A stretch of 38,046 nt of DNA from Betaproteobacteria bacterium (GTDB taxonomy: Bacteria; Pseudomonadota; Gammaproteobacteria; Burkholderiales; Burkholderiaceae_E). Position 1 is the first letter of the stretch, and each line of letters starts with the position of its first letter. Shown here piece by piece: positions 4,440 through 30,706 of the stretch. A program made the translations under genes and the position numbers. The notes under the pieces are model-generated. The model was not told where the DNA came from and did not search any database. It was given only the letters and a program-made list of their open reading frames with translations. The stretch is taken from contig VGHA01000027.1 in the NCBI GenBank assembly GCA_016868375.1, positions 1 through 38,046 on the forward strand, given 5' to 3'.

Positions 4440-4476
4440 CAGAATAGGGGCGCACCGCTGCAATGGCGCCGTTCGG

Positions 4477-16010: not shown

Positions 16011-16943
16011 ATGACCGGGCAAGCGGCGAATCCCTCACCACGCTCACCAGAGCGGCTTGACGACGCGCTCAGCCTGTTGGCCCAGCCTGGATGGCTGCCG
16101 CTGGCGGGCGGCACCGATGTTTACCCTGCGCATGTCGGCCGGCCCGTCTCGCGCCCGATCCTCGATCTGAGCCGAATCGATGCTTTGCGAGGCCAGTCGC
16201 GCGTGGCGGGCGTTGACGGCCGCTCGTGGTGGCGCATTGGCGCCCTGGAATCCTGGATGGCGCTTCGCGAGACGGTGCTGCCAGCGGGGTTCGAAGCGCT
16301 GCCCCAGGCGGCTGCCGAAGTCGGTGGGCGGCAGATACAGAACCAGGCCACGATAGGCGGTAATCTTTGCAATGCCTCGCCCGCGGCCGACGGTGTGCCA
16401 GCTCTGCTCGCACTCGATGCCGAGGCTGAACTGCAAAGCCGGCATGGCACCCGGCGATTACCGCTTTCCAAATTTGTTCTTGGCAATCGGCGCACTGCGC
16501 TGACGCCTGACGAACTGCTGGTGGCGGTGCTGGTGCCGATCGGGTCGCCGCGTGCGCGGTCGCAGTTTCTGAAGCTGGGCCATCGCAGGTATCTGGTCAT
16601 TTCCATCGCGATGGTCACGGTTTCAATCGATTCAGACGAGCATGGCGCGCTCTCGCGCTGCGCGATCGCGGTGGGCGCCTGTTCGGCGGCAGCCCAGCGC
16701 CTGCCGCATCTCGAGTCGCGTCTGATGTCCGCGCCACGCGATCAGGCCGCTCACATCGCAGCCCAACTGCTTGCCTCATCCGAGTCTCAGGCGTTGCTTG
16801 AAGCACTGTCGCCCATTGATGATGTGCGGGGCACCGCTGCCTACCGTCGGGAGGCGGTTCGCGAGCTGATCGTCCGGGCCATCGGTATGGCCTGCAGCAG
16901 CCTCTCATCATCCGAATTGCCGCAGGCACGGAGCCGCTCATGA
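16011..16943 (+). CDS. Molybdenum hydroxylase FAD-binding subunit (xanthine dehydrogenase family)
   Basis: A 310-residue FAD subunit of the xanthine dehydrogenase/CO dehydrogenase family. The two FAD loops are clear: AGGTDVYP at residues 32-39 and ATIGGNLCNASPAADG at 113-128. A CO-dehydrogenase-flavoprotein-type C-terminal domain follows. It carries electrons from the iron-sulfur centres to NAD or another acceptor. The frame is open back to 15423 but that part is antisense to fdxA; I placed the start at the ATG at 16011, where family similarity begins, preceded by a GGGGA-type site. Its end overlaps the next gene by four bases, so the two subunits are translationally coupled. It is the first gene of the heteroaromatic operon. 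Confidence 0.9.
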   Translation: MTGQAANPSPRSPERLDDALSLLAQPGWLPLAGGTDVYPAHVGRPVSRPILDLSRIDALRGQSRVAGVDGRSWWRIGALESWMALRETVLPAGFEALPQAAAEVGGRQIQNQATIGGNLCNASPAADGVPALLALDAEAELQSRHGTRRLPLSKFVLGNRRTALTPDELLVAVLVPIGSPRARSQFLKLGHRRYLVISIAMVTVSIDSDEHGALSRCAIAVGACSAAAQRLPHLESRLMSAPRDQAAHIAAQLLASSESQALLEALSPIDDVRGTAAYRREAVRELIVRAIGMACSSLSSSELPQARSRS

Positions 16944-19795
16944 ACAAGCCCTCTGACCTCGCGCTGGGTGCCCGGGTGCAGCCCATTCTATTCACCGTCA
17001 ACGGCCAGCCCGTTTCAATCGACGCGCAAGGCGCAGCACGCAGACTCAGTGATGTCCTGCGAGACGATCTCGGCCTGACCGGCACCAAGGTTGGCTGCAG
17101 CGCAGGCGATTGCGGCGCGTGCACGGTGCTGCTGGATGGGCAGCAGGTGTGCGCATGCCTGGTGGCGGGTGCGCAATGTGCAGGACGCACCGTTGAAACC
17201 GTTGAATCGCTCGCACCCGCCGAGGGCGAGCTGTCGGCGCTTCAGAAGGCGTTCGTCGATCACGGCGCCGCCCAGTGCGGCATCTGCACGCCCGGCATGC
17301 TGATGGCTGCGGCCGACACCCTGCGCCGCCATCCGCAGCCCACCGAGCAGCAGGTGCTTGACGGGTTGGGCGGTGTGCTGTGCCGCTGCACGGGCTATCG
17401 CAAAATCATCGATGCGGTGCTGTCGGTGGGTCAGCCCCAGGCAGGGCAATCCGCTGGAGTTTCCATCGACACCGTTCCGTCGGGTTCTGCGGTGGGCGCG
17501 CGCGTGGAGCGCTTTGATGCTTCGTCCAAGGTCACCGGCGCAGAGCGCTTCGGCGCCGATGAGGCGCCAGCGGATGCGCTGTGGCTTCGTGCCATCCGCT
17601 CGCCGCATCCCCGGGCCCGCTTCACACTCGGGGATCTCGCAGGATGGCTCGCCAGTCAGCCAGGTCTGGTGGATGTGGTGACCAGCGCCGACATCCCGAA
17701 TAACCGTTTTGCGATCTTCCCTGATCTGCGTGACCAGCCTGCGCTTGCCGAGGCTGAGGTGCGGTTTGCGGGCGAGGCCATCGCAGTCGTGGCCGGCACC
17801 CAGTCAGCCATTGAGTCGGTGAATGAGGCCTCGTTTCCGGTGACCTGGGAACCTATTGCGCCCGTGTCGGGTGTTGCGGCGGGCCTTGCGCCCGGTGCGC
17901 CGGCAGTCCAGAGCCGTTGGCCCGACAACGTGCTATGCCGCGGACGCGTGGTGTCGGGCGATATGGCCGCGCTCGCCGCCGCTGCGCCGCATGCGCTTTC
18001 GCTTGCCATGCGTACGCAGCATGTCGAGCATGCTTACATTGAGCCTGAGGCAGGTTGGGCCCGCTGGGAGGTCGATGCCGACGGTCCGCGCGTCACAATC
18101 TTCGCCTGCACGCAAACCCCTTACATGGACCGCGACGAGATCGCGTGGATGTTCGGTCTGAAGCCTGAGCGGGTGCGCATCATTCCGTCTGCAGTCGGCG
18201 GTGGCTTCGGCGGCAAGCTCGATCTCTCGGTTCAGCCCCTGCTGGTGGCCGCTTCGCGGCGGCTCGGCAGGCCTGCGCGCATCGTGTATCACCGTCCTGA
18301 ATCGATGCGGTCCACGACCAAACGCCATCCTGCGGTCATGGAGGCACAGTTTGCCGCCACCGCGGACGGCCAGTTTGTGGCCTACGATTTCACGGGTGAT
18401 TTCAACACCGGCGCCTATGCGTCATGGGGCCCCACGGTGGCCAACCGAGTCCCCATTCATGCAGCCGGGCCGTATCGCTGGCAGGCGGTTCGGGCGCTTA
18501 CCCGCGCGGTCATCACCAACGATCCGGTCGCCGGTGCATTCCGGGGGTTCGGCGTGCCGCAGTCAACCCTGCTCTGCGAATCCCTGATCGATGACTATGC
18601 GGCCCGCATTGGCGCCGACCCGCTCGAACTTCGGTACGCCAACGCGTTGCGCGCGGGTGACCGCACCGCCACCGGCCAGACGCTGCAGGCGAGCGTCGGG
18701 CTGCAGGCCTGTCTCGACGCGCTGCGGCCCGCCTGGCGCGCGTCGCGCGAACGGATCGGTCGCTGGCGTGAGCAGCCTCTGGCTGGACGCGACAGCGCGA
18801 TCGCCGCACCCAGCGACCCGCATGGCCGCAACCCCGCCACCCTGCGACGCGGCGTTGGTGTTGCATGCATGTGGTACGGCATTGGCAATACCGTGATTGC
18901 GAATCCGTCCGAGATGGAAATCGGTCTGAAGCCCGATGGCCGGTTTGTGCTGTTCAACGGTGCGGTGGATATCGGGCAGGGCACCTACACGATCATGCCG
19001 CAGATTGCCGCTGATGCGCTCGGGGTTCCGCTCGCGCTCATCGATCAGACCGTGGCGGATACCGCGCTCACGCTGGACGGGGGCAAGAGTTCGGCCTCGC
19101 GGCAAACCTTCGTGTCGGGCAATGCGGCGCGGTTGGCCGCGGAAGACTTGCGCCGGCAGTTGCTTGCGCGGCTGGGTGCGCCCGAGTCGGCGCAGCTCGA
19201 GGTTCGTCCGGGCAAGATCGCTGCGGGCGGCGCCGAGCTTGTGTTGTCAACGCTGCCCGTTGATGCGCGCGGTCTGGTGGCCGTAGGCTTTGGCCGTTTC
19301 AATCCGCCCACCGTGCCGCTTGATGCCGAGGGCCAGGGCGTGCCCTATGCCACCTACGGATTCGCCGCGCAGATCGCTGAGGTGGAGGTGGATGTGGCGC
19401 TGGGCAGCGTGCGCGTCCTGTCCATCCATGCGGCGCATGACGTGGGCCGTGCCATCAATCCCACCCAGGTCGAGGGCCAGATTCACGGTGGCATTGCGCA
19501 GGGTCTGGGGCTTGCGCTGATGGAAGACTACGTCGCGCTCAAAACCGACAACCTGCATGACTATCTGATCCCCACCGTGGGCGATATGCCGCCCGTTGTG
19601 GTGCATTTGATTGAAGATCCAGAGCCGCTCGGACCCAATGGTGCGAAAGGCGTTGGCGAGCCGGCGCTGGTGGCCACCGCGCCAGCGATTCTCAATGCGA
19701 TTCGCGATGCAACCGGCGTGCGGATGACCGAGGTTCCCGTGACGCCCGACCGGATGCTTGCTGCGCTTCGCCGTCAGGCCTCCGATGTGCGCTGA
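16940..19795 (+). CDS. Molybdenum hydroxylase with fused 2x[2Fe-2S] and Mo-cofactor domains (nicotinate/xanthine dehydrogenase-like)
   Basis: A 951-residue fusion of the small and large subunits of a xanthine-dehydrogenase-type enzyme. Residues 15-165 hold two [2Fe-2S] centres: Cys53, 58, 61, 73 and Cys113, 116, 148, 150 (ending CRCTGY). From about residue 188 (VERFDASSKVTG) the Mo-pyranopterin domains follow, with GGGFGGK at 420-426, AGAFRGFG near 531-538 and the catalytic glutamate Glu907 in GVGEPAL. These enzymes insert oxygen from water next to a ring nitrogen, for example nicotinate to 6-hydroxynicotinate. With a 6-hydroxynicotinate-reductase homologue next in line, that kind of reaction is the best inference, but the true substrate could be another N-heterocycle. 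Confidence 0.9.
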   Translation: MNKPSDLALGARVQPILFTVNGQPVSIDAQGAARRLSDVLRDDLGLTGTKVGCSAGDCGACTVLLDGQQVCACLVAGAQCAGRTVETVESLAPAEGELSALQKAFVDHGAAQCGICTPGMLMAAADTLRRHPQPTEQQVLDGLGGVLCRCTGYRKIIDAVLSVGQPQAGQSAGVSIDTVPSGSAVGARVERFDASSKVTGAERFGADEAPADALWLRAIRSPHPRARFTLGDLAGWLASQPGLVDVVTSADIPNNRFAIFPDLRDQPALAEAEVRFAGEAIAVVAGTQSAIESVNEASFPVTWEPIAPVSGVAAGLAPGAPAVQSRWPDNVLCRGRVVSGDMAALAAAAPHALSLAMRTQHVEHAYIEPEAGWARWEVDADGPRVTIFACTQTPYMDRDEIAWMFGLKPERVRIIPSAVGGGFGGKLDLSVQPLLVAASRRLGRPARIVYHRPESMRSTTKRHPAVMEAQFAATADGQFVAYDFTGDFNTGAYASWGPTVANRVPIHAAGPYRWQAVRALTRAVITNDPVAGAFRGFGVPQSTLLCESLIDDYAARIGADPLELRYANALRAGDRTATGQTLQASVGLQACLDALRPAWRASRERIGRWREQPLAGRDSAIAAPSDPHGRNPATLRRGVGVACMWYGIGNTVIANPSEMEIGLKPDGRFVLFNGAVDIGQGTYTIMPQIAADALGVPLALIDQTVADTALTLDGGKSSASRQTFVSGNAARLAAEDLRRQLLARLGAPESAQLEVRPGKIAAGGAELVLSTLPVDARGLVAVGFGRFNPPTVPLDAEGQGVPYATYGFAAQIAEVEVDVALGSVRVLSIHAAHDVGRAINPTQVEGQIHGGIAQGLGLALMEDYVALKTDNLHDYLIPTVGDMPPVVVHLIEDPEPLGPNGAKGVGEPALVATAPAILNAIRDATGVRMTEVPVTPDRMLAALRRQASDVR

Positions 19796-19831
19796 TCCGA
19801 TCCGTGTGCTGACCACCAGGAAACTGTCTCG

Positions 19832-21349
19832 ATGAGTGCTTCCCCAGAGCCGTCTGACGTTGCCGCGCCCGCGGCTGACGCCGCTGTCGTCAAGGCGCGT
19901 GCGCCCGAGAACATGGCGTCCAACAAGATTCAGTGCGACGCCTGTCCCGTGCTCTGCCAGATCAGCGAAGGCAGGTTGGGCGCCTGCGATCGGTGGGGCA
20001 ATGTTGAAGGGCAGCTTCGCCGAATGGATCCGGTCGTGCTCATGCAGCGGCCCGGTGTCGAACTGGTGCCGGCTGATCCGGCCACCTGGGAAGGCGGGTT
20101 GCTGCATCAGGATGCACCGGTGTTCGTGTCCGGGGTGGCCAGTGGAACCACCTATCCCGACTACAAGCCTGCGCCGTTCATTGTTGCCAGCCGTGCGCAG
20201 GGCGTTGACATGGTTACGGTGGTCACCGAAGGCATCTTCAGCTACTGCAGCTTCAAGGTGAAGATCGATACCGACCGCTACCTGGGCCCCGAGCAGGCCA
20301 CCGTCCGACACCAGGGCGAAGCGGTGGGCCATGTCACCACCATCGAATACGGGTCGCAGTTCCTGTCGCTGGGTGGCGTGCACCATCTTACGGGCGGCTC
20401 CAAGCGTGAAGGCCGGATCACCTGCGAGCTGATGGAACGGCTGGGCAACCACCATGCAGTCGATCTCGACATTGAGGGTGGCGCCAAGCTGACGGTGCAG
20501 GCCAGCCGGCCACCCATCGTCAATGGTGTTGAAGAACAGCGGATGCGGGTCGGCTGCGGCTCAGCCACAATCGGCATCTTCGCCAAGCAGTGGTTCGGGC
20601 ATGCCGATGAGGTGGTGGTGGTCGATGACCACATCACAGGCGTTCTGACCGAACATCAGGCCGGTAAATGTCTTGATATGAAGCCTTCGGGCATTCGGCT
20701 GCGCGGTCGTAAGTCAACGCCCGGCCGCTACTTTCAGGTGGCCAATCCAGGCACCGGCTGGGGCGGCACCGACATCGTTGATCCACTGTCCATCATCGAA
20801 GGATGGGATCCCAAGGTGGCGCGGCCAGGACTGCAACTCCTGATGGTGTCGACCACCGGCGAGCATGCCCAATGGTATGTGCTCGATGACGCCTTGGTGC
20901 CGCAGCCTGCGCCCATGCCTGCGCCCATCCAGACGGTGGTTGATCGGATTGGCGAAAACTGCGAACCCGCGCTGGCCACGGTGCTGTTTCTGGGGGGCGC
21001 GGGGGGCAGCCTGCGTGCAGGCGTCACCGAAAATCCGATCCTTCTCACCCGCTCCATCAAAGACCTTTTGACGCGCGTCACCTGCGGTGGCGCGCAAGCC
21101 TATGTGTGGCCGGGTGGCGGCATCACCGTGATGGTCGATGTCACGCGAATGCCACCGGGCTCATTTGGTTCGGTGCCCACGCCTGCCATCGTTGCACCCA
21201 TTGAGTTCACGATGCGACGCGACGACTACGAACGCCTGGGTGGGCACGTTGATCGCATTCGGCGTCTTGAAGATGTGTGGGCCGCGGGCGAGCACCGGGT
21301 CATTGACTGGCAGGGCGATAACCCCTGGCCGCTGGAGCCTCTGCGGTGA
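19832..21349 (+). CDS. 6-hydroxynicotinate reductase homologue (ferredoxin-dependent ring reductase)
   Basis: A 505-residue protein of the family named after Eubacterium barkeri 6-hydroxynicotinate reductase, which reduces the pyridone ring to 1,4,5,6-tetrahydro-6-oxonicotinate using reduced ferredoxin. A cysteine motif for an iron-sulfur cluster lies at residues 35, 38, 42 and 52 (CDACPVLC...GACDRW). Strongly conserved blocks include SGVASGTTYPDYKPAPFIV, VVTEGIFSYCSFKVKIDTD, LSLGGVHHLTGGSKREGR, MRVGCGSATIGIFAKQW and LFLGGAGGSLRAGVTENP. The first 30 residues are a low-complexity alanine-rich leader. AGGAAA precedes the ATG. Placement between the hydroxylase and the enamidase-containing part supports the pathway role. 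The exact substrate is inferred. Confidence 0.88.
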   Translation: MSASPEPSDVAAPAADAAVVKARAPENMASNKIQCDACPVLCQISEGRLGACDRWGNVEGQLRRMDPVVLMQRPGVELVPADPATWEGGLLHQDAPVFVSGVASGTTYPDYKPAPFIVASRAQGVDMVTVVTEGIFSYCSFKVKIDTDRYLGPEQATVRHQGEAVGHVTTIEYGSQFLSLGGVHHLTGGSKREGRITCELMERLGNHHAVDLDIEGGAKLTVQASRPPIVNGVEEQRMRVGCGSATIGIFAKQWFGHADEVVVVDDHITGVLTEHQAGKCLDMKPSGIRLRGRKSTPGRYFQVANPGTGWGGTDIVDPLSIIEGWDPKVARPGLQLLMVSTTGEHAQWYVLDDALVPQPAPMPAPIQTVVDRIGENCEPALATVLFLGGAGGSLRAGVTENPILLTRSIKDLLTRVTCGGAQAYVWPGGGITVMVDVTRMPPGSFGSVPTPAIVAPIEFTMRRDDYERLGGHVDRIRRLEDVWAAGEHRVIDWQGDNPWPLEPLR

Positions 21350-21400
21350 GGCTTGCGCAGGGTCGCCAATGAGCGCTCATTGGCTGGGCGGGGTGGGGCA

Positions 21401-22312
21401 ATGACCCCGTCATGGCAGCCGCAGCGGGCCCGGCTGGGTGACGGCCGCTGGCACTATCAGCACGGCCCGATTGACCTCGTGATTGGCGCAGACGGTGAGC
21501 CCGCCGCATGCGACGCGGCGCATCAGGCCTGCTGGCAGGCGTTTCAATCGGTGCTTGCTGAACTGGTGAGCGAACTTTCGGCGCTGCGCCAGGCGCTGCC
21601 ACGCTCGGGCGCTGCCGCGTCCGTCAGCGGGCCCGTTGCACGGCGCATGGTGGGTGCGTGTCTGCCGCATGCCCACGATGGGTTGTTCATCACGCCGATG
21701 GCAGCGGTTGCCGGAAGTGTCGCTGATCATCTGATTGACGCGTACCGTCGCGCTGGCGTGCTGCGTGCCTACATCAACAACGGCGGCGATATCGCGCTGC
21801 ATCTGGCCCCGGGACAGCACTGGCGCGCGGGCGTCGTGGCCAACATCGACGATCCGTCGCTCGATGCCAGCCTGGTGGTCACGGGCGAAAGCGGGCTGAG
21901 GGGCCTGGCCACCTCAGGCTGGCGAGGGCGCAGCCTGTCGCTGGGCATCGCTGACAGCGTCACCGTGGTGGCGCGCGATGCGGCTGCGGCCGACGCGGCC
22001 GCCACCATCATCGCCAACCATGTGAATGTTACCGACCCGGCCATCCGCAGGCTTCCGGCCAACCAGGTCCGTGATGATTCCGACCTGGGTACTCTGCCCG
22101 TGACCGTGGCGGTGGGGGCGTTGCCCTCGGCAAGCATCGAGCAGGCGCTTGCCAGTGGGCTGGCCTGCGCGCAGCAACTGGTCGAACGGGGACTGATTTC
22201 GCAAGCGCTGCTCAACCTAGCCGGGCGCTGGGTGCAGGCGGGATCGGGGTGCGTGCTGCCCGCGTTCGCAGGCCAGCCCAACCGCTCCCGCTTACTGGAG
22301 GTCGCAGGATGA
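21401..22312 (+). CDS. UPF0280 family protein (ApbE-like fold)
   Basis: A 303-residue protein of UPF0280, a family structurally related to ApbE, the FAD:protein FMN transferase. Diagnostic stretches are FITPMAAVAGSVADHLIDA (residues 97 on) and YINNGGDIALHL (125 on). The start was placed at the ATG at 21401, which leaves a 51-base gap after the ring-reductase gene; an upstream start at 21353 would give an unlikely basic leader. The end overlaps the Rieske gene start by four bases. A role in flavin attachment or cofactor handling for the adjacent reductase is possible from fold kinship, but there is no direct evidence in the sequence. Confidence 0.85.
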   Translation: MTPSWQPQRARLGDGRWHYQHGPIDLVIGADGEPAACDAAHQACWQAFQSVLAELVSELSALRQALPRSGAAASVSGPVARRMVGACLPHAHDGLFITPMAAVAGSVADHLIDAYRRAGVLRAYINNGGDIALHLAPGQHWRAGVVANIDDPSLDASLVVTGESGLRGLATSGWRGRSLSLGIADSVTVVARDAAAADAAATIIANHVNVTDPAIRRLPANQVRDDSDLGTLPVTVAVGALPSASIEQALASGLACAQQLVERGLISQALLNLAGRWVQAGSGCVLPAFAGQPNRSRLLEVAG

Positions 22313-23379
22313 GTTTCGTTCGCAACGCCTGGTATGTGGGCGCATGGCGTGATGAACTGGGGACCAAGCCCTTTGCACGTCGCATTCTCGATGTGCCGGT
22401 GGTGTTCTTCCGACGCGCTGATGGTCGACCCGCAGCGCTGGTTGACCAATGTCCGCATCGACTGCTGCCGCTGTCGCGCGGCACGGTGGTGGGCGACACG
22501 CTTCAGTGTGGCTATCACGGCATGTGTTTCAGCGCCGAGGGCCAATGCACCCGGGTTCCCGCGCAGACGCATATTCCGCCCGATGCGAATGTCCGCGCCT
22601 TTCCAGTGATCGAGCACTGGGGCATGGTCTGGATCTGGATGGGGGATCCGCGGCTTACCGATCCTGCCAGGCTGTTTCAGGGGCTGCCCTGGGGTAAGCC
22701 AGGCTGGACGCTGAACACCGGGCCTTACACGCACGTGAAAGCCGACTACCGGCTGCTGGTTGAGAACCTGCTGGATCCGGTGCACGTCACCTATGTGCAT
22801 CAGTCAACGCTGGGCACGTCGGCAATGGCCGATATCCCGATTGAAACCAGTCAGGATGGCGACACGATTCTGGTCACCCGCTGGACCCGCAACTCACCGG
22901 CTGCGCCGATTCTCCAGCGCTTTGGTCGCTGGCCAGGCAACGTTGACCGCTGGCAGTACTACTGGTGGCATGCGCCCTCGATCAATGTGGTTGATTTTGG
23001 CGCGCATGACGTGGGCAGCGGCGACAGTGAAGCGGCCCGACAGGCGGGTGTCCGGATGTTTTCAAACCATTTTCTGACGCCCGAAACGGCCACCACCACG
23101 CACTATTTCTGGTGCCAGTTGCGCAATTTCGCCCCCGATGACGAGGCGGTTTCGCGCGAGATCACCGAGCAGTTCGTGATGGCCTTCGATGAAGACAAGG
23201 AAATTCTCGAGGCGGTTCAGCAGGCCAGTGCCGAGCCGCTGGTGGTGCGTCCGGTGCAGTTGGGCATCGATGCCGGAGCCGTCCGAATGCATCGGACGCT
23301 CGATCGACTGATTGCCGCCGAGTCGACCGCGTCGGACGAATCAACGCTTGCCTCTCATGGACAAGCCACCGCACACTAA
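22309..23379 (+). CDS. Rieske non-heme iron oxygenase, vanillate O-demethylase (VanA)-like
   Basis: A 356-residue terminal oxygenase, the length typical for the VanA/dicamba/N-demethylase group. The Rieske [2Fe-2S] ligands are Cys48, His50, Cys67 and His70 (CPHRLLPLS...CGYHG). The mononuclear iron site is VENLLDPVHVTYVHQ with Asn153, Asp156, His159 and His164, all present. VanA-type enzymes remove methyl groups from O or N, or hydroxylate rings, using O2. GGAGG precedes the ATG, which overlaps the UPF0280 stop (ATGA). No VanB-type reductase gene is nearby, so electrons must come from an unlinked reductase or perhaps from the FdxA system. The substrate is unknown; a methylated relative of the pathway substrate is one possibility. 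Confidence 0.9.
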   Translation: MSFVRNAWYVGAWRDELGTKPFARRILDVPVVFFRRADGRPAALVDQCPHRLLPLSRGTVVGDTLQCGYHGMCFSAEGQCTRVPAQTHIPPDANVRAFPVIEHWGMVWIWMGDPRLTDPARLFQGLPWGKPGWTLNTGPYTHVKADYRLLVENLLDPVHVTYVHQSTLGTSAMADIPIETSQDGDTILVTRWTRNSPAAPILQRFGRWPGNVDRWQYYWWHAPSINVVDFGAHDVGSGDSEAARQAGVRMFSNHFLTPETATTTHYFWCQLRNFAPDDEAVSREITEQFVMAFDEDKEILEAVQQASAEPLVVRPVQLGIDAGAVRMHRTLDRLIAAESTASDESTLASHGQATAH

Positions 23380-23446
23380 TGCGTTGCAACCCAACGGGGT
23401 CGTCTTTATACCGGCTGATCCCACCTAAAACGGAGGAGTTCTGAAA

Positions 23447-24658
23447 ATGAAAAAACGTGAGTTTCTGGCGGCGGGCGTTGCCCCCGCTGCGGCGGCGGCA
23501 CTGTCACCGCTTGGCGCTTGGGCGCAGTCCGGCCCCATCCGCATTGGCGAGATCAACAGTTACAAAGCGCAGCCGGCATTCCTGGACCCGTATCGCAAGG
23601 GCTGGGAGATGGCGGTCGAAGAAATCAATGCGGCCGGTGGCGTGGGTGGACGAAAGATTGAGGTGATCGCGCGCGATGACGGCGGCAATCCGGGAGATGC
23701 CGTTCGGGTGGCCGAGGAACTGGTGAGTCGTGAGCGGGTTGATCTGCTGGTGGGCGGGTTTCTGTCGCACATTGGCCTGGCCCTCACCGATTTCGCCAAG
23801 CAGAAAAAAATCTTCTTCCTGGCCTCCGAGCCGCTGACCGACAAAATCGTCTGGCAAAACGGTAATCGCTACACGTTCCGCTTGCGTGCGTCCACCTACA
23901 TGCAAACGGCGATGCTGGTTCCCGAAGCCGCCTCCTGGAAGAAAAAGCGCTGGGCCATCGTCTACCCCAACTATGAATACGGTCAGTCAGCTACTGCCAG
24001 CTTCAAAAACCTGCTGCGCAAGCTTCAGCCCGATGTCGAGTTCGTGGTGGAGCAGGCGCCGGCGCTTGGCAAAGTGGATGCGGGCGCAGTGGTCCAGGCG
24101 CTCGCCGATGCAAAGCCCGATGCGATCTTCAATGTGCTGTTCGGCGCCGATCTGGCCAAGTTTGTTCGCGAGGGCAACACGCGTGGGCTGTTCAAGGGCC
24201 GCGAAGTGGTCAGCCTCCTCACCGGTGAGCCCGAGTACATCGATCCGCTGAAAGACGAGGCGCCCGAAGGCTGGCTGGTCACAGGCTATCCCTGGGATCA
24301 GATCAACACGCCCGAACACAAGGCTTTCGTTGACGCCTATCAGAAGCGATTCAAAGACTATCCGCGGCTGGGGTCCGTCGTTGGGTACACGGCGCTGAAG
24401 GCGATGGGCGCGGGCCTGATCAAAGCCGGTGGCGCTGATACCGAAAAGCTGATCACCGCATTCCGTGGGCTGCAGTTTGATTCACCGATGGGCAAAGTGG
24501 TGTTCCGCCCTCAGGATCATCAATCCACGCTGGGCGCGTATGTGGGCCGGACCACGGTTCGGAACGGCCGCGGCACGATGCGTGACTTCCGGTACGCAGA
24601 TGGCGCCAAGTACCAGCCCTCTGACGCCGAAGTGGCCAGCCTGCGTCCGAAAGACTGA
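23447..24658 (+). CDS. ABC transporter substrate-binding protein, branched-chain amino acid (LivK) type
   Basis: A 403-residue periplasmic receptor of the LivK-like type-I fold. Residues 1-26 are a signal peptide (MKKREFLAAG, long alanine-rich core, GAWAQS cleavage). The mature start IRIGEINSYKA followed by YRKGWEMAVEEINAAGGVGGRKIEVIARDDGGNPGDAVRVAEELV is the standard ligand-binding front end, and YPNYEYGQSATASFKNLL the start of the second lobe. An AGGAG ribosome site precedes the ATG. Several such receptors in soil bacteria bind aromatic acids rather than amino acids; placement here suggests the heteroaromatic substrate. A long hairpin follows the gene and may raise its expression over the permease genes. 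Confidence 0.93.
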   Translation: MKKREFLAAGVAPAAAAALSPLGAWAQSGPIRIGEINSYKAQPAFLDPYRKGWEMAVEEINAAGGVGGRKIEVIARDDGGNPGDAVRVAEELVSRERVDLLVGGFLSHIGLALTDFAKQKKIFFLASEPLTDKIVWQNGNRYTFRLRASTYMQTAMLVPEAASWKKKRWAIVYPNYEYGQSATASFKNLLRKLQPDVEFVVEQAPALGKVDAGAVVQALADAKPDAIFNVLFGADLAKFVREGNTRGLFKGREVVSLLTGEPEYIDPLKDEAPEGWLVTGYPWDQINTPEHKAFVDAYQKRFKDYPRLGSVVGYTALKAMGAGLIKAGGADTEKLITAFRGLQFDSPMGKVVFRPQDHQSTLGAYVGRTTVRNGRGTMRDFRYADGAKYQPSDAEVASLRPKD

Positions 24659-24675
24659 CCGGTCGCCGGTTGCCC

Positions 24676-24722
24676 CGCTGCCGCCTGCGCGCTTCGCTTT
24701 CTTGCGAACGCGCGCGGCAGCG
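24676..24722 (+). other. Long imperfect hairpin between receptor and permease genes
   Basis: CGCTGCCGC (24676-24684) pairs with GCGGCAGCG (24714-24722), GCGCG (24687-24691) with CGCGC (24709-24713), and TTCGC (24693-24697) with GCGAA (24704-24708). That is 19 pairs with two small bulges and a six-base loop. It lies in the 108-base gap after the receptor gene. Such hairpins often stabilise the receptor message and reduce read-through into permease genes. No T-run follows, so full termination is unlikely. Confidence 0.6.
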
Positions 24723-24766
24723 CCGACTCGCCTGCGCCTGGCGCATCTTCACCGGGTTGAATCCTC

Positions 24767-26665
24767 ATGACCCTTTCCGCTTTGCTGGTCCAGATGCTGA
24801 ACGGTCTGGCCAGTGCCTCCAGCCTGTTCCTGATCGCGGCCGGACTGTCGCTGATCTTCGGTGTGTCGCGAATCGTCAATTTCGCGCACGGCTCGTTCTA
24901 CATGCTGGGCGTTTACCTCGCGTATTCGATCGTTGGCAAGATTGGCAGCGGCCCGCTGGGCTTCTGGCTGTCACTGCTGATCGCCGCGGCGGTGGTGGCG
25001 CTGGTCGGCCTGGTTGTTGAGCTGGTATTGCTGCGCCGTATCTACCGCGCGCCCGAACTGTTGCAGCTGCTGGCAACCTTCGCGCTGGTTCTGGTGATTC
25101 GCGATGCGGTGCTTGTCATCTGGGGACCTGAAGATCTGCTCGGCCCGCGAGCGCCCGGCCTGAAAGGGTCGATCGAAATCATGGGGCGCCAGTTTCCCCA
25201 ATACGATCTGGTGCTGATTTTCATTGGGCCGCTGGTGCTCGCCATTTTGTGGTGGGTGCTGATGCGTACCCGCTGGGGCATTCTGATTCGTGCCGCAACG
25301 CAGGACCGCGAAATGGTGGGTGCGCTGGGCGTCAATCAGGCCTGGCTGTTTACGGGCGTCTTCATGCTGGGCGCGTTTCTCGCCGGACTCGGCGGTGCGT
25401 TACAACTGCCGCGCGAGCCCGCCAATCAGTTTCTCGATCTGGCTGCCATCGGTGATGCATTCGTGGTGGTGGTGGTCGGCGGAATGGGGAGCGTACCGGG
25501 CGCTTTTCTCGCCGCGCTGCTGATTGCCGAGATCAAGGCGCTCTGCATCGCAATCGGCCAGGTATCAATCGGCGGGTTCACCTTCTCGCTTTCGCGGATG
25601 ACGCTGGTGGTGGAGTTTCTGGTGATGGCCGCCGTGCTCATCTGGCGCCCCTGGGGCCTGCTCGGCAAACCGGCAGCGGCGACCCGCAATACGGCCGAGA
25701 TCGAGGCGCCTTTGCGGCCCGCCACGCCACTTCTCAAGCGATTCGGCTGGCTGGTGCTGGTGCTGCTTCTGCTGGTGCCAGTGGTGGGTCTGAAAATGCC
25801 GTTCATCAATGTGCTGATGATCGACATCCTGATCGCCGTGCTGTTTGCCGCGAGCCTGCACTTCATCATGGGGCCCGGTGGCATGCACTCATTTGGTCAC
25901 GCCGCCTACTTTGGGCTGGGTGCTTACGGCGCAGCCCTGCTGTTCAAGCTCGCCTCAATGCCCATGGAGGCCGCCCTGATGATCGCGCCGCTGGTGGCGG
26001 GTCTGGGTGCGCTGATCTTCGGCTGGTTCTGCGTCAGGCTGTCGGGCGTGTACCTCGCGATGCTCACGCTCGCGTTCGCTCAGATCGTCTGGTCCATCAT
26101 GTTTCAGTGGGATGAGGTCACGGGCGGCTCCAACGGCGTGGTGGGGGTCTGGCCAGCGGCCTGGCTGTCGCAGAAATGGGTCTACTACTACTTCACGCTC
26201 GCACTCACCGTGGCGGGTGTTGTGCTGCTTCGCCGGGTGCTGATGTCGCCGTTCGGATATTCGATGCGCGCAGTCCGCGATTCGCGATTGCGCGCGGACG
26301 CGATCGGCATCGACGCCGTCGGCGTGCATTTGGCGGGCTTTGTGCTTGCAGGATTGATCTGCGGCCTGGCCGGCGCGCTGTTCGCATTTTCAAAGGGCAG
26401 TATTTCGCCCGAAGTGATCGGCGTCGGGCGCTCGATTGATGGGCTGGTGATGGTGCTGCTGGGCGGTATCCAGACGCTGGCCGGCCCGCTGGTGGGCGCA
26501 TCGGCATTCACCTGGCTGCAGGACACGGTGGCGCGTCAGACCGACTACTGGCGGGCGCTGCTGGGCTTCACCATCCTGGTGCTGGTGCTGGCATTCCCGC
26601 AGGGCATTGCCGGATTTGTGCGGGATCGCATGATGCCCGAGCGCGATGCGGGAGGTGCACGATGA
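24767..26665 (+). CDS. Fused ABC permease, LivH-LivM type
   Basis: A 632-residue inner-membrane protein joining both permease subunits of a branched-chain amino-acid-type ABC importer. Residues 1 to about 300 are LivH-like (GLSLIFGVSRIVNFAHGSFYMLG, then GALGVNQAWLFTGVFMLGAFLAGLGGAL); residues from about 320 are LivM-like (LHFIMGPGGMHSFGHAAYFGLGAYGA and AVRDSRLRADAIGIDAVGVHLAGFVLAG). About sixteen hydrophobic segments are visible, as expected for the sum of both. In most systems these are two genes. Its end overlaps the first ATPase gene by four bases. It forms the channel for substrate delivered by the receptor encoded upstream. Confidence 0.93.
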   Translation: MTLSALLVQMLNGLASASSLFLIAAGLSLIFGVSRIVNFAHGSFYMLGVYLAYSIVGKIGSGPLGFWLSLLIAAAVVALVGLVVELVLLRRIYRAPELLQLLATFALVLVIRDAVLVIWGPEDLLGPRAPGLKGSIEIMGRQFPQYDLVLIFIGPLVLAILWWVLMRTRWGILIRAATQDREMVGALGVNQAWLFTGVFMLGAFLAGLGGALQLPREPANQFLDLAAIGDAFVVVVVGGMGSVPGAFLAALLIAEIKALCIAIGQVSIGGFTFSLSRMTLVVEFLVMAAVLIWRPWGLLGKPAAATRNTAEIEAPLRPATPLLKRFGWLVLVLLLLVPVVGLKMPFINVLMIDILIAVLFAASLHFIMGPGGMHSFGHAAYFGLGAYGAALLFKLASMPMEAALMIAPLVAGLGALIFGWFCVRLSGVYLAMLTLAFAQIVWSIMFQWDEVTGGSNGVVGVWPAAWLSQKWVYYYFTLALTVAGVVLLRRVLMSPFGYSMRAVRDSRLRADAIGIDAVGVHLAGFVLAGLICGLAGALFAFSKGSISPEVIGVGRSIDGLVMVLLGGIQTLAGPLVGASAFTWLQDTVARQTDYWRALLGFTILVLVLAFPQGIAGFVRDRMMPERDAGGAR

Positions 26666-27414
26666 GTGCATTGCTCGAGGTCAATAGCCTGTCCAAAGCG
26701 TTTGGCGGTGTGCGTGCGGTGAACCAGGTCACCTTCAGTGTCGCAGCAGGTGAGTTGCTGGCCATGATCGGCCCCAATGGCGCAGGCAAGTCCACCTGCT
26801 TCAACATGCTGAATGGCCAGCTGCGGCCTGATGCCGGATCAATCCGACTGGCCGGGCGTGAAATTGTCGGGCTTGAGCCGCGCGCGGTCTGGCGCATGGG
26901 CGTGGGCCGCACATTTCAGATCACGGCCACCTTCTCGTCGATGACGGTACGTGAAAACGTCCAGATGGCGCTTCTGTCGCATCACCGCATGATCGCCCGA
27001 GGCTGGCGGCCCGCCGCCGAGTCGTTTGTCGATGAGGCCGATCATCTGCTCGAGCGCGTGGGCATGAAGGCGCAGGCCGACCGGCCGTGTTCGGTGCTTG
27101 CCTACGGTGACCTGAAGCGGCTCGAGCTTGCGATCGCGCTGGCCAATGAACCGAAGCTGTTGTTGATGGACGAGCCCACGGCCGGAATGGGGCCGCGCGA
27201 GCGCCTCGATCTTATGGCGCTCACCGCAGAGCTTGTGCGCGCGAAGGGCGTGGCGGTGCTGTTTACCGAGCACGACATGGATGTGGTGTTTCGCCATGCA
27301 GACCGGATGATGGTGCTCAACCGTGGCGTGTTGATCGCCCAGGGGCAGCCCGAGGCGGTGCGCGCCGACCCGGAGGTGCAGCGCGTGTATCTCGGTTCCA
27401 GAGCCGAGCACTGA
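26662..27414 (+). CDS. ABC transporter ATP-binding protein, LivG type
   Basis: A 250-residue ATPase. Walker A is GPNGAGKST at residues 37-45, Walker B is LLLMDEPTAGM, and the switch histidine is in FTEHDMDVVF. The signature is AYGDLKRLELAIAL, the LivG-type form without a canonical LSGGQ. It starts with an ATGA overlap with the permease gene and ends ten bases before the second ATPase. It powers the importer as a heterodimer with the LivF-type protein. Confidence 0.94.
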   Translation: MSALLEVNSLSKAFGGVRAVNQVTFSVAAGELLAMIGPNGAGKSTCFNMLNGQLRPDAGSIRLAGREIVGLEPRAVWRMGVGRTFQITATFSSMTVRENVQMALLSHHRMIARGWRPAAESFVDEADHLLERVGMKAQADRPCSVLAYGDLKRLELAIALANEPKLLLMDEPTAGMGPRERLDLMALTAELVRAKGVAVLFTEHDMDVVFRHADRMMVLNRGVLIAQGQPEAVRADPEVQRVYLGSRAEH

Positions 27415-27424
27415 GGGCAGATTG

Positions 27425-28171
27425 ATGAACGCTACTCACTCTTCTTCTGCCGGCGCTGCAGGCGCGGTCATGCTTGAAGTCTCTGGCATTCACGCGTTTT
27501 ACGGCCAGGCGCATATTCTGTTTGATGTCTCGCTCACTATATGTGCCGGCGAGGTCGTGGTGCTGCTTGGTCGCAATGGCGCGGGCAAGTCGACCACGCT
27601 CAAGTCGATCGCCGGTCTGGTTCGTCCACGCGAGGGCACGGTGAAGTTCATGGGCGAGACCATCGAACGTCGCCAGCCCTTTGAAGTGGCACGCCGCGGC
27701 CTGGGCTATGTTCCCGAAGAGCGACGGATCTTCACCGAGCTGACGGTGCTCGAAAATCTTGAGGTCGGGCGGCAGCCGCCCCGACCAGGCGTCCCTGCCT
27801 GGGATTTCGAGAAAATCGGCAAACTTTTCCCTAATCTTGCCGAGATGCCCGATCGGCCGGGCGGTCGCATGTCAGGCGGTGAGCAACAGATGCTCACCAT
27901 CGCCCGTACGCTGATGGGCAACCCGCTCTGCATCCTGCTCGATGAGCCTTCTGAAGGCGTGGCGCCAGTGATTGTTGACCAGATGGCCGCTGCGATCACC
28001 GAGCTTAAGCGGCAGGGTGTGGCGGTGCTGCTCTCCGAGCAGAATCTGCACTTTGCCCAGGAAGTGGGTGATCGCGCCTACATCATCGAAAAAGGCCGAA
28101 TTCGCTTTGAGGGGTCGATGGCGGCGCTGCGCGCCAATGACGAGGTGCGCGCGCAGTATCTCGCGGTCTAG
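27425..28171 (+). CDS. ABC transporter ATP-binding protein, LivF type
   Basis: A 248-residue ATPase, partner of the LivG-type subunit. Walker A is GRNGAGKST at residues 49-57, the signature is RMSGGEQQMLTIAR, Walker B is CILLDEPSEGVAP, and the switch region is LLSEQNLHFA. YVPEERRIFTELTVLENLEVG is a LivF hallmark. The start could be the TTG at 27422, the ATG at 27425 or an internal ATG at 27470; I chose 27425. The first 15 residues are a low-complexity Ser/Ala stretch not normally found in LivF. Importers of this class bring in hydrophobic amino acids, amides, urea or aromatic acids. Confidence 0.94.
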   Translation: MNATHSSSAGAAGAVMLEVSGIHAFYGQAHILFDVSLTICAGEVVVLLGRNGAGKSTTLKSIAGLVRPREGTVKFMGETIERRQPFEVARRGLGYVPEERRIFTELTVLENLEVGRQPPRPGVPAWDFEKIGKLFPNLAEMPDRPGGRMSGGEQQMLTIARTLMGNPLCILLDEPSEGVAPVIVDQMAAAITELKRQGVAVLLSEQNLHFAQEVGDRAYIIEKGRIRFEGSMAALRANDEVRAQYLAV

Positions 28172-28223
28172 TGTCTGTCGCTGCGCCGACCGCCAGTCAG
28201 GCAATCAATCCAGGAGAGTTCCT

Positions 28224-28808
28224 ATGGCAGCACAAATTCGCAAGCTGATTGTCAGCGTCGAAGAAACGCGTCGTGAGATGGGCCGTGACGTCACGCCGCC
28301 CACCCGGCGCGCGCTTGCGATGGCAGTGATCGAGAATCCTTATGCGGGTCGCTACAGCGAATCGCTCGACGAACTCATTGCGATCGGCGAAGAGCTGGGC
28401 GGGCTGCTCGGCGAGCGCTGCGTGCAGGCGCTTGGCATTGCGCCCGACGCGGCAGAGAGCTACGGCAAAGCGGCGGTGGTGGGCGAGGCGGGCGAGCTTG
28501 AACACGCTGCTGCCATCCTGCATCCGAAGCTGGGTGCACCGCTTCGTAAAGCGGTTCAGAAGGGGGCTGCGTTGGTGCCTTCGGCCAAGAAGGCAGGCGG
28601 CCCGGGCACGCCAATCGATGTACCGCTCGGACACAAGGACGCAGCCTTCGTACGCAGCCATTTCGATGCGATTGAAGCGCGCGTGGCCGATGCGCCCCGG
28701 GCGGGCGAGATTCTGGTGGCGGTGGCGGTCACGGACAGTGGCCGGCCGCTGCCGCGAATTGGCGGGCTGCAGAAGCATGAAATCAAGGGCGAGGACGGCC
28801 TTCGTTAA
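28224..28808 (+). CDS. DUF1185 'amino acid synthesis' family protein
   Basis: A 194-residue soluble protein of family PF06684 (DUF1185), whose solved members have a chorismate-mutase-like fold but no proven activity. Typical stretches are IRKLIVSVEETRREMG, ALAMAVIENPYAGRYSE, SYGKAAVVGEAGELEHAAAILHPKLGAPLRKAV and the C-terminal GRPLPRIGGLQKHEIKGEDG. The ATG at 28224 has an AGGAGAG ribosome site; the frame upstream of it is antisense-like sequence inside the LivF-type gene. It lies directly before the enamidase-type gene. By location it probably acts on the ring-opened or reduced intermediate, but no reaction can be assigned from sequence. Confidence 0.88.
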   Translation: MAAQIRKLIVSVEETRREMGRDVTPPTRRALAMAVIENPYAGRYSESLDELIAIGEELGGLLGERCVQALGIAPDAAESYGKAAVVGEAGELEHAAAILHPKLGAPLRKAVQKGAALVPSAKKAGGPGTPIDVPLGHKDAAFVRSHFDAIEARVADAPRAGEILVAVAVTDSGRPLPRIGGLQKHEIKGEDGLR

Positions 28809-28845
28809 GCGCTGACGGGACGAACGCGCGATCAGGAGAAACACC

Positions 28846-30048
28846 ATGGCAACAGCAGCGATCGTCGAGAAATCAGGCAAGGTGGTCATCCGCCGTGTCG
28901 GCCTGATGCTGTCGGGCGATATCGACCATCCGATTCTGGATGCAGACACCATCGTTGTGAACGATGGTGTCATCACGGCGGTGGGTCGCGAAAAAGACTG
29001 TGACACCAGCGAACCCAGGCGCATCATCGACTGTCAGGGTACGGCGATTGCTCCAGGGCTCATTGATTCGCACACGCACCCTGTGTTTGGTGACTGGACG
29101 CCGCGGCAGAATCAGCTGGGTTGGATCGAGTCGTGCATGCACGGCGGCGTCACCACCATGATTTCTGCAGGCGAGGTGCACCTGCCCGGCCGGCCCAAAG
29201 ACATCGTTGGTGTCAAGGCGCTGGCAATCACCGCGCAGCGCGCCTTCGACGGCATGCGCGCAGCGGGCGTAGGGGGCGGCGTCAAGGTGCTGGCAGGCGC
29301 GCCGGTCATTGAGAAAGGCATGGTCGAACAGGACTTCGCTGATCTGGCGGCCGCCGGTGTGCGCCTGCTTGGCGAGATTGGCCTGGGGTCGGTTAAAGCG
29401 GGCGACGAGGCTGCCCAGATGGTGGCCTGGGCGCGGCGTCATGGCATTCAAAGCACCATCCATACGGGTGGCCCGTCCATTCCCGGATCAGGTCTCATCG
29501 ATGAGCACGTGGTGCTGGAGGCCGATGCCGATGTGATCGGGCATGTGAATGGCGGTCATACCTCGCTGTCCTACAAATCGGTCTGTACGCTGTGCGAAAA
29601 AAGCAGCCGTGCGCTCGAGATCGTGCATAACGGTAATGAACGCATTGCGATTCTCACCGCGCGCCACGCGATCGAGCTGAAGTGCCCGCATCGCGTGATC
29701 CTGGGCACCGATGCGCCAGCCGGATCGGGTGTGCAGCCGCTGGGGATGTTGCGAATGATCGCGCTGCTGTCCAGCATGGCCGATATTCCCGCCGAAATCG
29801 TGTTTGGATTTGCCACGGGCAACATCGCCAGAATGCGGTCGCTGCCACAGGGCCTGATCGAGGTCGGTCGGCCCGCCGATTTTGTATTCATCGACAAGGC
29901 GCAGCACTCCGCGGGCACCGATCTGCTCGACAGTATTCGGTTGGGTGATATTCCCGGCGTGGGCATGGTGATGATCGATGGCATCGTGCGCTGTCAGCGC
30001 AGTCGCAATACGCCGCCTGCCGCCGAGGTGCCGGTCATTGCGCACTGA
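28846..30048 (+). CDS. Enamidase-type amidohydrolase
   Basis: A 400-residue metal-dependent hydrolase closely resembling Eubacterium barkeri enamidase, which opens 1,4,5,6-tetrahydro-6-oxonicotinate to 2-formylglutarate and ammonia. The binuclear-site residues are in place: His76 and His78 (DSHTHP), a bridging-type Glu177 (LGEIGLGS), His206 (IHTGGPSIPGS), His233 (GHVNGGHTS) and Asp289 (LGTDAPAG). The stretches HGGVTTMISAGEVHLPGRPKD and the C-terminal SRNTPPA are shared with enamidase as I remember it, which argues against a hydantoinase or dihydroorotase. AGGAGA precedes the ATG. It follows DUF1185 by 37 bases and precedes the TetR gene by 19. Confidence 0.9.
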   Translation: MATAAIVEKSGKVVIRRVGLMLSGDIDHPILDADTIVVNDGVITAVGREKDCDTSEPRRIIDCQGTAIAPGLIDSHTHPVFGDWTPRQNQLGWIESCMHGGVTTMISAGEVHLPGRPKDIVGVKALAITAQRAFDGMRAAGVGGGVKVLAGAPVIEKGMVEQDFADLAAAGVRLLGEIGLGSVKAGDEAAQMVAWARRHGIQSTIHTGGPSIPGSGLIDEHVVLEADADVIGHVNGGHTSLSYKSVCTLCEKSSRALEIVHNGNERIAILTARHAIELKCPHRVILGTDAPAGSGVQPLGMLRMIALLSSMADIPAEIVFGFATGNIARMRSLPQGLIEVGRPADFVFIDKAQHSAGTDLLDSIRLGDIPGVGMVMIDGIVRCQRSRNTPPAAEVPVIAH

Positions 30049-30067
30049 GCCTGCGCGCAGCAATCGC

Positions 30068-30706
30068 ATGCGCTCTGAGTCGGGCCCGCGCCGTCGTGAT
30101 CGTGAGGCGACACGGGCCCGAATTCTCGGCGCTGCCGTCATCGAATTTGCGCGTTTCGGTCTGTCGGAGGCGCGCGGCGAACGGATCGCCCGGCGAGCGC
30201 GCAGCAGCGAGCGCATGCTTTACTATTATTTTGGCAGCAAGGAAGAGTTGTTTCGTGCGGCGCTTGAGTCAGTGTATGCCTCGCTTCGCGAGGCCGAGCG
30301 TTCGCTGAGACTCGATGAAGAAGACTCGCTGGCCGCGCTCGAGCGCTTCTGCCGCTTCGTCTGGCGATACTACGTTGAGCATCCTGAATTCATCAGCCTG
30401 CTCAATACCGAAAACCTTTATAAAGCGCGGCACCTGCGGCGCTCCGCGCAGCTCGGTGAGCTGGTCTCGCCGGTGGTCGGTTTGCTGGGTGGCTTGATCG
30501 AGCGGGGTGCTCAGGCGGGCGTGTTTCGCCCCGGTGTCGATCCCGCGCAGCTTTATCTGGCAATCGCATCACAGGGCTATTTCTATCTTTCCAATCGGCA
30601 CACCTTGTCGGCGGTGCTGGCGCGCGATCTGTCGGCACCCGAGTCGCTCGAGGCGCATTGGCGCGAAAGCGCTGAGATGATTCGACGCTACGTCGCCGTG
30701 ACGTGA
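30068..30706 (+). CDS. TetR-family transcriptional regulator
   Basis: A 212-residue repressor-type protein. Residues 10-65 form the TetR DNA-binding domain: DREATRARILGAAVIEFARFG, the helix-turn-helix RGERIARRARSSERMLYYYFGSKEELFRAAL, with the family's YYYFGSKEEL. The C-terminal part is the helical ligand-binding and dimer domain. The frame is open from 29978, overlapping the amidohydrolase, but the ATG at 30068 matches the domain start; its ribosome site is weak. At the end of the catabolic operon it is the likely pathway regulator; the palindrome at 15939-15956 is a candidate target. Its ligand would be the substrate or an intermediate. Confidence 0.9.
   Translation: MRSESGPRRRDREATRARILGAAVIEFARFGLSEARGERIARRARSSERMLYYYFGSKEELFRAALESVYASLREAERSLRLDEEDSLAALERFCRFVWRYYVEHPEFISLLNTENLYKARHLRRSAQLGELVSPVVGLLGGLIERGAQAGVFRPGVDPAQLYLAIASQGYFYLSNRHTLSAVLARDLSAPESLEAHWRESAEMIRRYVAVT

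Follow-up and report, generated by a model that had tools for sequence, protein, structure and literature searches.

The stretch of DNA analyzed here, referred to as the window, comprises 38,046 nucleotides of a betaproteobacterial metagenome-assembled genome (MAG; assembly GCA_016868375.1, contig VGHA01000027.1, positions 1 to 38,046 of the forward strand). On its plus strand, between positions 16011 and 30706, it carries a run of genes that includes a homologue of 6-hydroxynicotinate reductase (Hnr) and, directly behind it, a gene of the UPF0280 family. We found that these two genes are constant partners in the compared genomes, and that the Hnr of the window lacks the ferredoxin domain that is fused to the Hnr of anaerobes. 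Both the constant pairing and the contrast between fused and free ferredoxin are new, whereas the reductive nicotinate cluster itself is of a known kind. We consider it quite probable that the run as a whole serves the import and reductive breakdown of nicotinate or a very close analogue, with UPF0280 working as a maturase of Hnr and with electrons supplied by a free carrier. Gene identities, gene order, co-occurrence, the predicted fold of UPF0280 and the presence or absence of ferredoxin domains were all computed.

UPF0280 is a constant partner of Hnr

Gene order was analyzed in 103 Hnr loci, two of which left no room for the adjacency test. Many of the locus stretches end at 20 kb or at contig ends, and absences reported for loci throughout this work are absences in the stretch examined. 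UPF0280 and Hnr genes adjoin in 100 of the 101 remaining loci: in 98 of them UPF0280 follows Hnr immediately, the genes overlap by approximately 100 bases in two more, and they are 4 kb apart in one. In the window, the UPF0280 gene starts 51 bases past the Hnr gene. At the level of whole genomes, the same 38 of 397 Pseudomonadota genomes, that of the window among them, gave strong matches to both UPF0280 and Hnr; Hnr was present in 22 of 232 genera. At E 1e-3, 40 genomes of this sample matched Hnr, of which G430 and G174 (E 5e-4) were set aside, as were the UPF0280 matches of G427, G285, G348 and G302 (E 7e-5 to 9.5e-4). One UPF0280 protein served as query, which a divergent UPF0280 could escape, and HcyBio, the other partner of UPF0280, was not sought in this sample.

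Two reports (PMC5764234, PMC12068725) describe a homocysteine module in the order HcyBio (COG1900/PF01837), ferredoxin and COG2122, the last of these being UPF0280. This module resembles the Hnr loci in that a ferredoxin-dependent enzyme, with a fused or separate ferredoxin, is accompanied by a UPF0280 gene; it differs in that the two clients are not detectably homologous and in that the two UPF0280 branches differ at one near-invariant cysteine. Among 199 genomes of the phylum containing the Clostridia, strong Hnr was found in 6 and HcyBio in 66, with no overlap; UPF0280 was present in all 72 genomes with either client, and 123 genomes had none of the three. The Hnr count leaves aside 81 of the 87 matching genomes, in which short matches (E 8e-7 to 1e-3) lay over the N-terminal cysteine motif. 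Since the sampled genomes are not phylogenetically independent, the p-values for co-occurrence, as well as that for the association of enamidase with DUF1185 given below, overstate the evidence.

The number of UPF0280 copies follows the same pattern. Two MAGs of sulfate reducers that have both Hnr and HcyBio carry two UPF0280 copies each, and the second copy in G450 stands in the row HcyBio, ferredoxin, UPF0280. A single copy is present in the Clostridial genome of locus L114, which has Hnr but lacks HcyBio, and three genomes with an enamidase locus devoid of Hnr (G452-G454; Hnr was not sought genome-wide) have neither an HcyBio match nor UPF0280. In a further genome, G602, both genes are duplicated: there are two copies of Hnr, the match to one of them containing an internal stop, and two copies of Hnr-type UPF0280, which lie in separate places. 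Among the matches listed in the open-access literature, no published link between UPF0280 and Hnr was found.

The Hnr protein and its electron supply

Searches of Pfam and NCBIfam at E 1e-3 gave no family for the window Hnr, and none of its PDB sequence matches was significant (best E 0.079). Proteins 60-69% identical to it were retrieved from 26 plasmid records, 17 of them annotated as 6-hydroxynicotinate reductase, and it is 41-44% identical to the Hnr proteins that anaerobes encode beside an enamidase; these stand as proxies for the Hnr of Eubacterium barkeri, which was not in the comparison. Cysteines C35, C38, C42, C52, C242 and C377 are conserved in at least 108 of 110 sequences. The predicted model (pLDDT 86, pTM 0.83) found no Foldseek match at E <=0.001, and its best VIA-align score was Z 4.3. 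A new fold is only a possibility raised by this model, as the chain exceeds 400 residues and a family outside the search lists could still match. No Hnr was found on viral contigs. The N-terminal CxxCxxxCx9C motif (window 19934-19987) resembles the N-terminal motif of radical SAM proteins (L275, L277, L278), presumably those named AmmeMemoRadiSam; the three gave weak profile matches to Hnr, and all carry the radical-SAM type CxxxCxxC motif.

Two CxxCxxCxxxC ferredoxin motifs are fused ahead of the four-cysteine (Cys4) motif in all three anaerobe Hnrs of the locus set (L112-L114), and two were likewise found in each of the six Hnrs from the Clostridia-containing phylum (L269-L274), one of which comes from the genome of L114. 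None of the 98 other readable Hnrs has them, nor does the window's; two Hnrs without a readable Cys4 motif were left out of the count. As the window Hnr is devoid of a fused ferredoxin domain, a separate electron carrier is to be expected, and electrons would reach Hnr from such a free carrier. The local candidates are a ferredoxin, FdxA, as the carrier, and an Nfn-like flavoprotein of 1188 amino acids as the ferredoxin reductase, although the latter is also a gene of the chromosomal backbone. The fdxA gene, overlooked in an earlier reading of the sequence alone (hereafter the sequence-only reading), lies just upstream of the flavoprotein gene, and the pair is divergent from the operon.

A ferredoxin-NADP reductase gene (Fpr) was found nearby in 43 of the 103 Hnr loci, an FdxA-like gene in 19 and an Nfn-like flavoprotein gene in 10, so that at least one of the three is present in 53; ferredoxin-NADP reductase and the Nfn-like protein occur together in one locus only. 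Two results count against a local electron supply: none of these genes was found in the other 50 loci, and the FdxA-flavoprotein pair also occurs in Hnr-negative relatives, so that its adjacency may be positional. We give an even chance to the reading in which FdxA and the flavoprotein are unrelated backbone genes that merely lie beside the operon. The block Pho4-PhoU-PhaZ-flavoprotein-FdxA is indeed present in Hnr-negative G006 and, followed by importer genes, in G019, G027 and G034. Yet loci of Acidovorax, Polaromonas and Caldimonas independently place an FdxA-like gene and a ferredoxin-NADP reductase next to Hnr, and among 37 genomes of the window's family 15 have both Hnr and the flavoprotein, two Hnr only, eight the flavoprotein only and 12 neither. 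A dedicated role of the flavoprotein as reductase of Hnr was discarded, as it and FdxA are found with the same neighbours in relatives devoid of Hnr; because the backbone block also occurs without Hnr, both proteins are retained as candidates only.

What UPF0280 may do

The AlphaFold2 model of the window UPF0280 protein (pLDDT 92) matches the UPF0280-family structure 2O34 with Z 20.2, followed by the ApbE/Ftp flavin transferases with Z 14.1-16.8, the next unrelated fold being at 7.8. As modelled, UPF0280 has the ApbE flavin-transferase fold. Conserved in both the Hnr-linked and the HcyBio-linked branches are, among others, MAAVAG, NGGD, TS and AD..A...N, and we take NGGD, TS and AD..AT to be motifs of ApbE. 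Within the Hnr-linked branch, D198 (108 of 108) and T202 (107 of 108) are presumably the counterparts of the Mg-binding Asp and Thr of ApbE. Given the ApbE fold, flavin is the first cofactor candidate; the Hnr of E. barkeri reportedly carries a covalently bound flavin, according to a study of 2006. On this view, UPF0280 would install or load a cofactor in Hnr as its dedicated maturation factor, and most likely has no catabolic function of its own. On balance we favour a maturation role of some sort, while covalent flavinylation of Hnr by UPF0280 is a distinctly more tentative proposal.

Several observations weigh against this reading. The catalytic His of the ApbE/Ftp transferases has no conserved counterpart in UPF0280, where the only His column more than 80% conserved lies near the N-terminus. 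Moreover, the Pfam ApbE profile (PF02424) scores 24.9 bits, under its gathering cut-off of 25.6, and D..[ST]GA[ST], which we take to be the canonical ApbE target motif, occurs in none of the 110 Hnr sequences. UPF0280 was also matched in four of the 199 genomes without Hnr or HcyBio, namely G565, G584, G599 and G606, the last three being short or broken; the frame in G565 has 306 amino acids and scores 84.6 bits, and with neither client matched there, it points to a possible third one. In addition, a published statement doubts the flavin-binding region of a UPF0280-type protein, and the methanogen protein MA1715 has been assigned a different role, sulfur or persulfide handling, in PMC12068725.

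That published view is the basis of an alternative in which UPF0280 handles sulfur or persulfide and serves Fe-S or thiol chemistry in both Hnr and the homocysteine synthase. It would fit the cysteine found at one position, directly before TS, in 52 of 53 HcyBio-linked proteins, and a cysteine-rich motif near the C-terminus of a methanogen COG2122 protein, to which PMC9431491 draws attention. However, the same position is alanine in 107 of 108 Hnr-linked proteins, in which no column has cysteine in more than 43 of 108, and the presumed Hnr reaction involves no addition of sulfur. Judging from these alignments, cysteine chemistry is unlikely to be the shared function of UPF0280. As the Hnr-linked branch is devoid of a conserved cysteine, a maturase is favoured over a sulfur carrier, and we regard the sulfur alternative as unlikely.

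Equally improbable, in our view, is a catalytic or structural role of UPF0280 alongside Hnr, either as a subunit or as a pathway enzyme: the invariable gene pairing would suit a subunit just as well, but UPF0280 also partners HcyBio, a protein without detectable sequence relationship to Hnr, and the E. barkeri Hnr is said to have been purified as one kind of subunit. Homology between Hnr and HcyBio, which would have explained the common partner, was rejected, as hhalign gave probabilities of 2.4% (20 HcyBio sequences) and 0.4% (49 sequences), with much the same short stretch aligned and no significance. Returning to the maturase, a broader version can be put forward with some reserve, as it seems to us more doubtful than not: UPF0280/COG2122 may be a cytosolic maturase of ApbE fold acting on two unrelated low-potential enzymes, Hnr and the COG1900 homocysteine-forming enzyme, in each of which it would attach flavin, or a related group derived from a nucleotide, to a non-canonical site. 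The sulfur trafficking of methanogens would then be indirect, and Hnr would be a covalently flavinylated dearomatizing reductase of new fold.

Gene content of the operon

The sequence-only reading had described a plus-strand island with a molybdenum hydroxylase, Hnr, enamidase, an oxygenase, UPF0280, DUF1185, an importer and a TetR regulator, and all these genes are indeed open reading frames, as seen from the listing of open reading frames (ORFs) and profile searches:

11931-15497, minus strand: flavoprotein of 1188 amino acids, NfnB-NfnA-like; best NCBIfam match PRK06567, under its cut-off
15507-15833, minus strand: ferredoxin FdxA (NF045490, 169 bits, cut-off 135)
16011-16943, plus strand: FAD subunit of the molybdenum hydroxylase (PF00941, PF03450)
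16940-19795, plus strand: fused [2Fe-2S]/molybdopterin subunit of the hydroxylase, nicotinate-type, putative step 1 (PF00111, PF01799, PF01315, PF02738, PF20256)
19832-21349, plus strand: Hnr, 6-hydroxynicotinate reductase homologue, putative step 2 (identities as given above)
21401-22312, plus strand: UPF0280/COG2122, proposed Hnr maturation factor, predicted ApbE fold (NCBIfam PRK04334.1-2, 374.8 bits, cut-off 290)
22309-23379, plus strand: Rieske oxygenase of the VanA/dicamba O-demethylase type, putative optional accessory step (PF19112, VanA_C; PF00355, Rieske; DdmC E 3e-62)
23447-24658, plus strand: substrate-binding protein of the ABC importer (PF13458)
24767-26665, plus strand: fused double permease of the importer (PF02653 in two stretches, UrtB-like and UrtC-like halves)
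26662-27414, plus strand: importer ATPase 1 (PF00005, PF12399)
27425-28171, plus strand: importer ATPase 2 (PF00005)
28224-28808, plus strand: DUF1185, type B (PF06684 above the Pfam cut-off; 2QTP E 1.6e-89; 3BYQ also matches by sequence)
28846-30048, plus strand: enamidase (Ena) homologue, putative step 3 (2VUN, the E. barkeri enamidase, E 6e-104)
29978-30706, plus strand: TetR regulator (PF00440, PF17938)

We take the PRK04334.1-2 model to stand for COG2122. The importer is complete over 23447-28171, with binding protein, fused permease and two ATPases. For the FAD subunit, the listed ORF begins at 15423 and the domain match at approximately residue 208, with an ATG at 16011; the listed starts at 15423 and 27972 are probably too early, and the true start of the TetR gene probably lies further downstream. 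The Fe-S/Mo subunit, of the xanthine dehydrogenase family, shows two readable [2Fe-2S] cysteine motifs and the GVGEP motif. The enamidase is 46% identical to 2VUN, and the His, Glu and Asp residues that we presume to be its metal ligands are invariant in a four-row alignment. Behind the TetR gene, a D-2-hydroxyacid dehydrogenase is encoded at 30793-31749; in two relatives (L059, L060), homologues of it lie in the vicinity of Ena/TetR. Tripartite tricarboxylate transporter genes with a cobalamin-independent methionine-synthase-like protein (310-4601) form an apparently separate locus.

A probable reductive nicotinate-type pathway

Based on these identities, we infer a substrate, an order of reactions, an electron source and roles for UPF0280 and DUF1185, as follows. 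The ABC importer would take up nicotinate or a very close pyridine-3-carboxylate, which the molybdenum hydroxylase would convert, in the case of nicotinate, to 6-hydroxynicotinate. Hnr, fed by reduced ferredoxin, would reduce the latter to 1,4,5,6-tetrahydro-6-oxonicotinate (THON), and the enamidase would hydrolyze THON to 2-formylglutarate and ammonia. DUF1185 may act on this aldehyde product, and the carbon would leave through a glutarate-type or other lower pathway encoded outside the window. That the pathway is of the reductive nicotinate type is very probable: the sequence-only proposal of uptake, hydroxylation, ring reduction and hydrolytic opening of nicotinate or an analogue is in line with the identities of the enamidase to its E. 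barkeri counterpart and of Hnr to the anaerobe proteins. That reading also held that the sequence does not settle the substrate, and we agree; nicotinate itself is the likeliest natural substrate, and a probable one.

The hydroxylase, Hnr and enamidase homologues recall the nicotinate fermentation of E. barkeri, reportedly described by Alhapel in 2006. The window differs from it in that its Hnr has no fused ferredoxin domain, as judged against the anaerobe Hnrs named above (E. barkeri's own not among them), and in that its hydroxylase does not show the four-part division into large, medium, small and FAD subunits. In addition, as the sequence-only reading had noted, the later-step genes of E. 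barkeri are missing: hydroxymethylglutarate dehydrogenase, methyleneglutarate mutase and others were not recognized among the 30 window ORFs run against Pfam, a search confined to the window within its genome. The location of such an island in a proteobacterium is in itself no surprise, since clusters of this kind have been described there: according to a map in a 2012 paper (PMC3511419), Azorhizobium, Bradyrhizobium and Rhodopseudomonas have a cluster leading from nicotinate to THON, and the cluster of strain SG-6C and A. caulinodans is assigned there to nicotinate degradation via THON. Where the window has a two-subunit hydroxylase of the xanthine dehydrogenase type, a TetR regulator and a Rieske gene, the Bradyrhizobium loci carry a hydroxylase of the NicAB type (as L023 is annotated) and a regulator of the MarR type, and frequently also include a ferredoxin-NADP reductase.

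Two results speak against nicotinate as the substrate. First, the PDB matches of the Fe-S/Mo subunit include the nicotinate dehydrogenase subunits of 3HRD, but the aldehyde oxidoreductase of D. gigas scores higher and is the top match. Second, neighbourhood maps show exchangeable modules, the hydroxylase being of the window type or NicAB, and ring opening being encoded by Ena or by a HyuAB pair. At the fewest, the hydroxylase changes four times and the ring-opening gene five times on the Hnr tree, a tree built by a quick method and with long branches for three anaerobe rows; these changes, at least four and at least five, could mean different substrates. We read them as non-homologous replacement within one pathway.

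The Rieske oxygenase bears on the same question, as the enzymes could act on another pyridine or N-heteroaromatic acid, e.g., an N-, O- or ring-methylated nicotinate first demethylated or oxidized by the oxygenase. Its gene lies inside the operon, its start overlapping the UPF0280 stop by 4 bases, and dicamba O-demethylase is the nearest protein among solved structures. Copies with at least 60% identity occur in five of 61 relatives, the window's genome included, all on Hnr-bearing contigs; the gene is also present in plasmid clusters of Rhodobacterales, and more distant copies are found in some alphaproteobacterial clusters. However, it was found in 5 of 57 loci selected by Hnr, some stretches being incomplete, and is thus missing from the examined stretch of the other 52; G023, of the same clade, has the operon without it; and no reductase partner was recognized in the operon. 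We therefore consider the Rieske oxygenase an optional extra and not a defining part. The alternative substrate is not very likely, although the oxygenase probably widens the substrate range, e.g., by demethylating methylated nicotinate; trigonelline as its substrate is an attractive guess.

DUF1185 accompanies enamidase

UPF0280 and DUF1185 were rightly listed in the sequence-only reading, and their role is revised here from bystanders to recurrent partners. DUF1185 has a single copy in the window genome. The window's type, B, is carried by 68 of the 69 loci in which Hnr and Ena occur together, whereas none of 16 examined stretches with type A only has Ena. The enamidase-selected loci (the best 80 of 279 confirmed, without the contig of E. 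barkeri or Azorhizobium) are biased towards Ena, and the test was therefore repeated on the 57 Hnr-selected loci, 34 of which have a ring-opening gene: type B was found in 23 of 23 Ena loci and in 3 of 11 HyuAB-only loci (p 9e-6). Type B also stands beside Ena in 13 of 35 loci without Hnr. Among them, the Chloroflexi loci L116 and L117, and likewise L145, have enamidase and DUF1185 with no Hnr or UPF0280 in the stretch; in L116 and L117 an isochorismatase-family gene directly precedes the enamidase gene, which suggests another enamide-opening pathway.

According to PMC2954203, the DUF1185 family has a chorismate-mutase-like fold and no assigned function. TgnF, a DUF1185 homologue of the trigonelline pathway, resembles the present case in belonging to a pathway with a semialdehyde intermediate; it differs in the ring chemistry and is described, in PMC7913881, which cites the work, only as stimulating semialdehyde oxidation. 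DUF1185 may act on the formylglutarate released by Ena, e.g., as tautomerase or decarboxylase, a proposal to which we give somewhat less than even weight. A point against it comes from L114 (a MAG of Clostridiales Family XIII), where DUF1185 belongs to a more complete cluster of E. barkeri type that also contains dehydrogenase and dehydratase genes, and where decarboxylation of formylglutarate would be unexpected. That cluster comprises a hydroxyisobutyrate-dehydrogenase-type gene, enamidase, Hnr, UPF0280, a sigma-54 activator, DUF1185 and a serine-dehydratase-like gene. The decarboxylase version is weakened by this route, and the more general action on the aldehyde was kept.

Genomic setting and distribution

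Hnr was found in 19 of the 61 genomes of the window's relatives, the window's own included. The gene order of the window recurs in part on contigs of the same genus (G001-G004) and in other relatives, and the Rhodospirillaceae MAG L134 has the order from the molybdenum subunit to Ena gene for gene; the order is thus not a chance arrangement. The MAG of the window has a contamination rating of 7.5%. However, each of the other four sampled genomes of this genus also matched Hnr, with the match fragmented in one of them, which argues against the operon being a contaminant. The betaproteobacterial origin that the sequence-only reading had assumed is supported indirectly: the Hnr tree places the proteins of G236, G378 and G440, three genomes from the window's order, among sequences of Variovorax and further Comamonadaceae.

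In Hnr-negative G019, G027 and G034, the backbone block described above flanks importer genes at the same chromosomal site, and two of the three have a homologue of the window Na+/H+ antiporter (32050-33309) beyond the importer. No catabolic genes were matched in the stretches read of these genomes, one of which ends at a contig end. These sites (L302, L301 and L303, respectively) look like an importer-only version of the island. They may have arisen by loss of the enzymes while the importer was retained, perhaps to salvage the vitamin, or may represent the older arrangement.

Significance

The best-known case of reductive pyridine-ring opening is a clostridial fermentation. With Hnr in approximately one tenth of the sampled Pseudomonadota genomes, the reductive route may be relevant to what becomes of nicotinate, 6-chloronicotinate and similar pyridines in soils and the sea. 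Nevertheless, what makes these results valuable is not so much the pathway as the pairing of UPF0280 with Hnr and the contrast between fused and free ferredoxin, both of which are directly testable. The pairing gives genetics and biochemistry direct access to a conserved protein whose function is still debated for methanogens and sulfate reducers, and Hnr is a client whose presumed reaction involves no sulfur transfer. Altogether, the constant company of the ring-reducing Hnr in the compared genomes gives the helper protein UPF0280 a job that can be tested.

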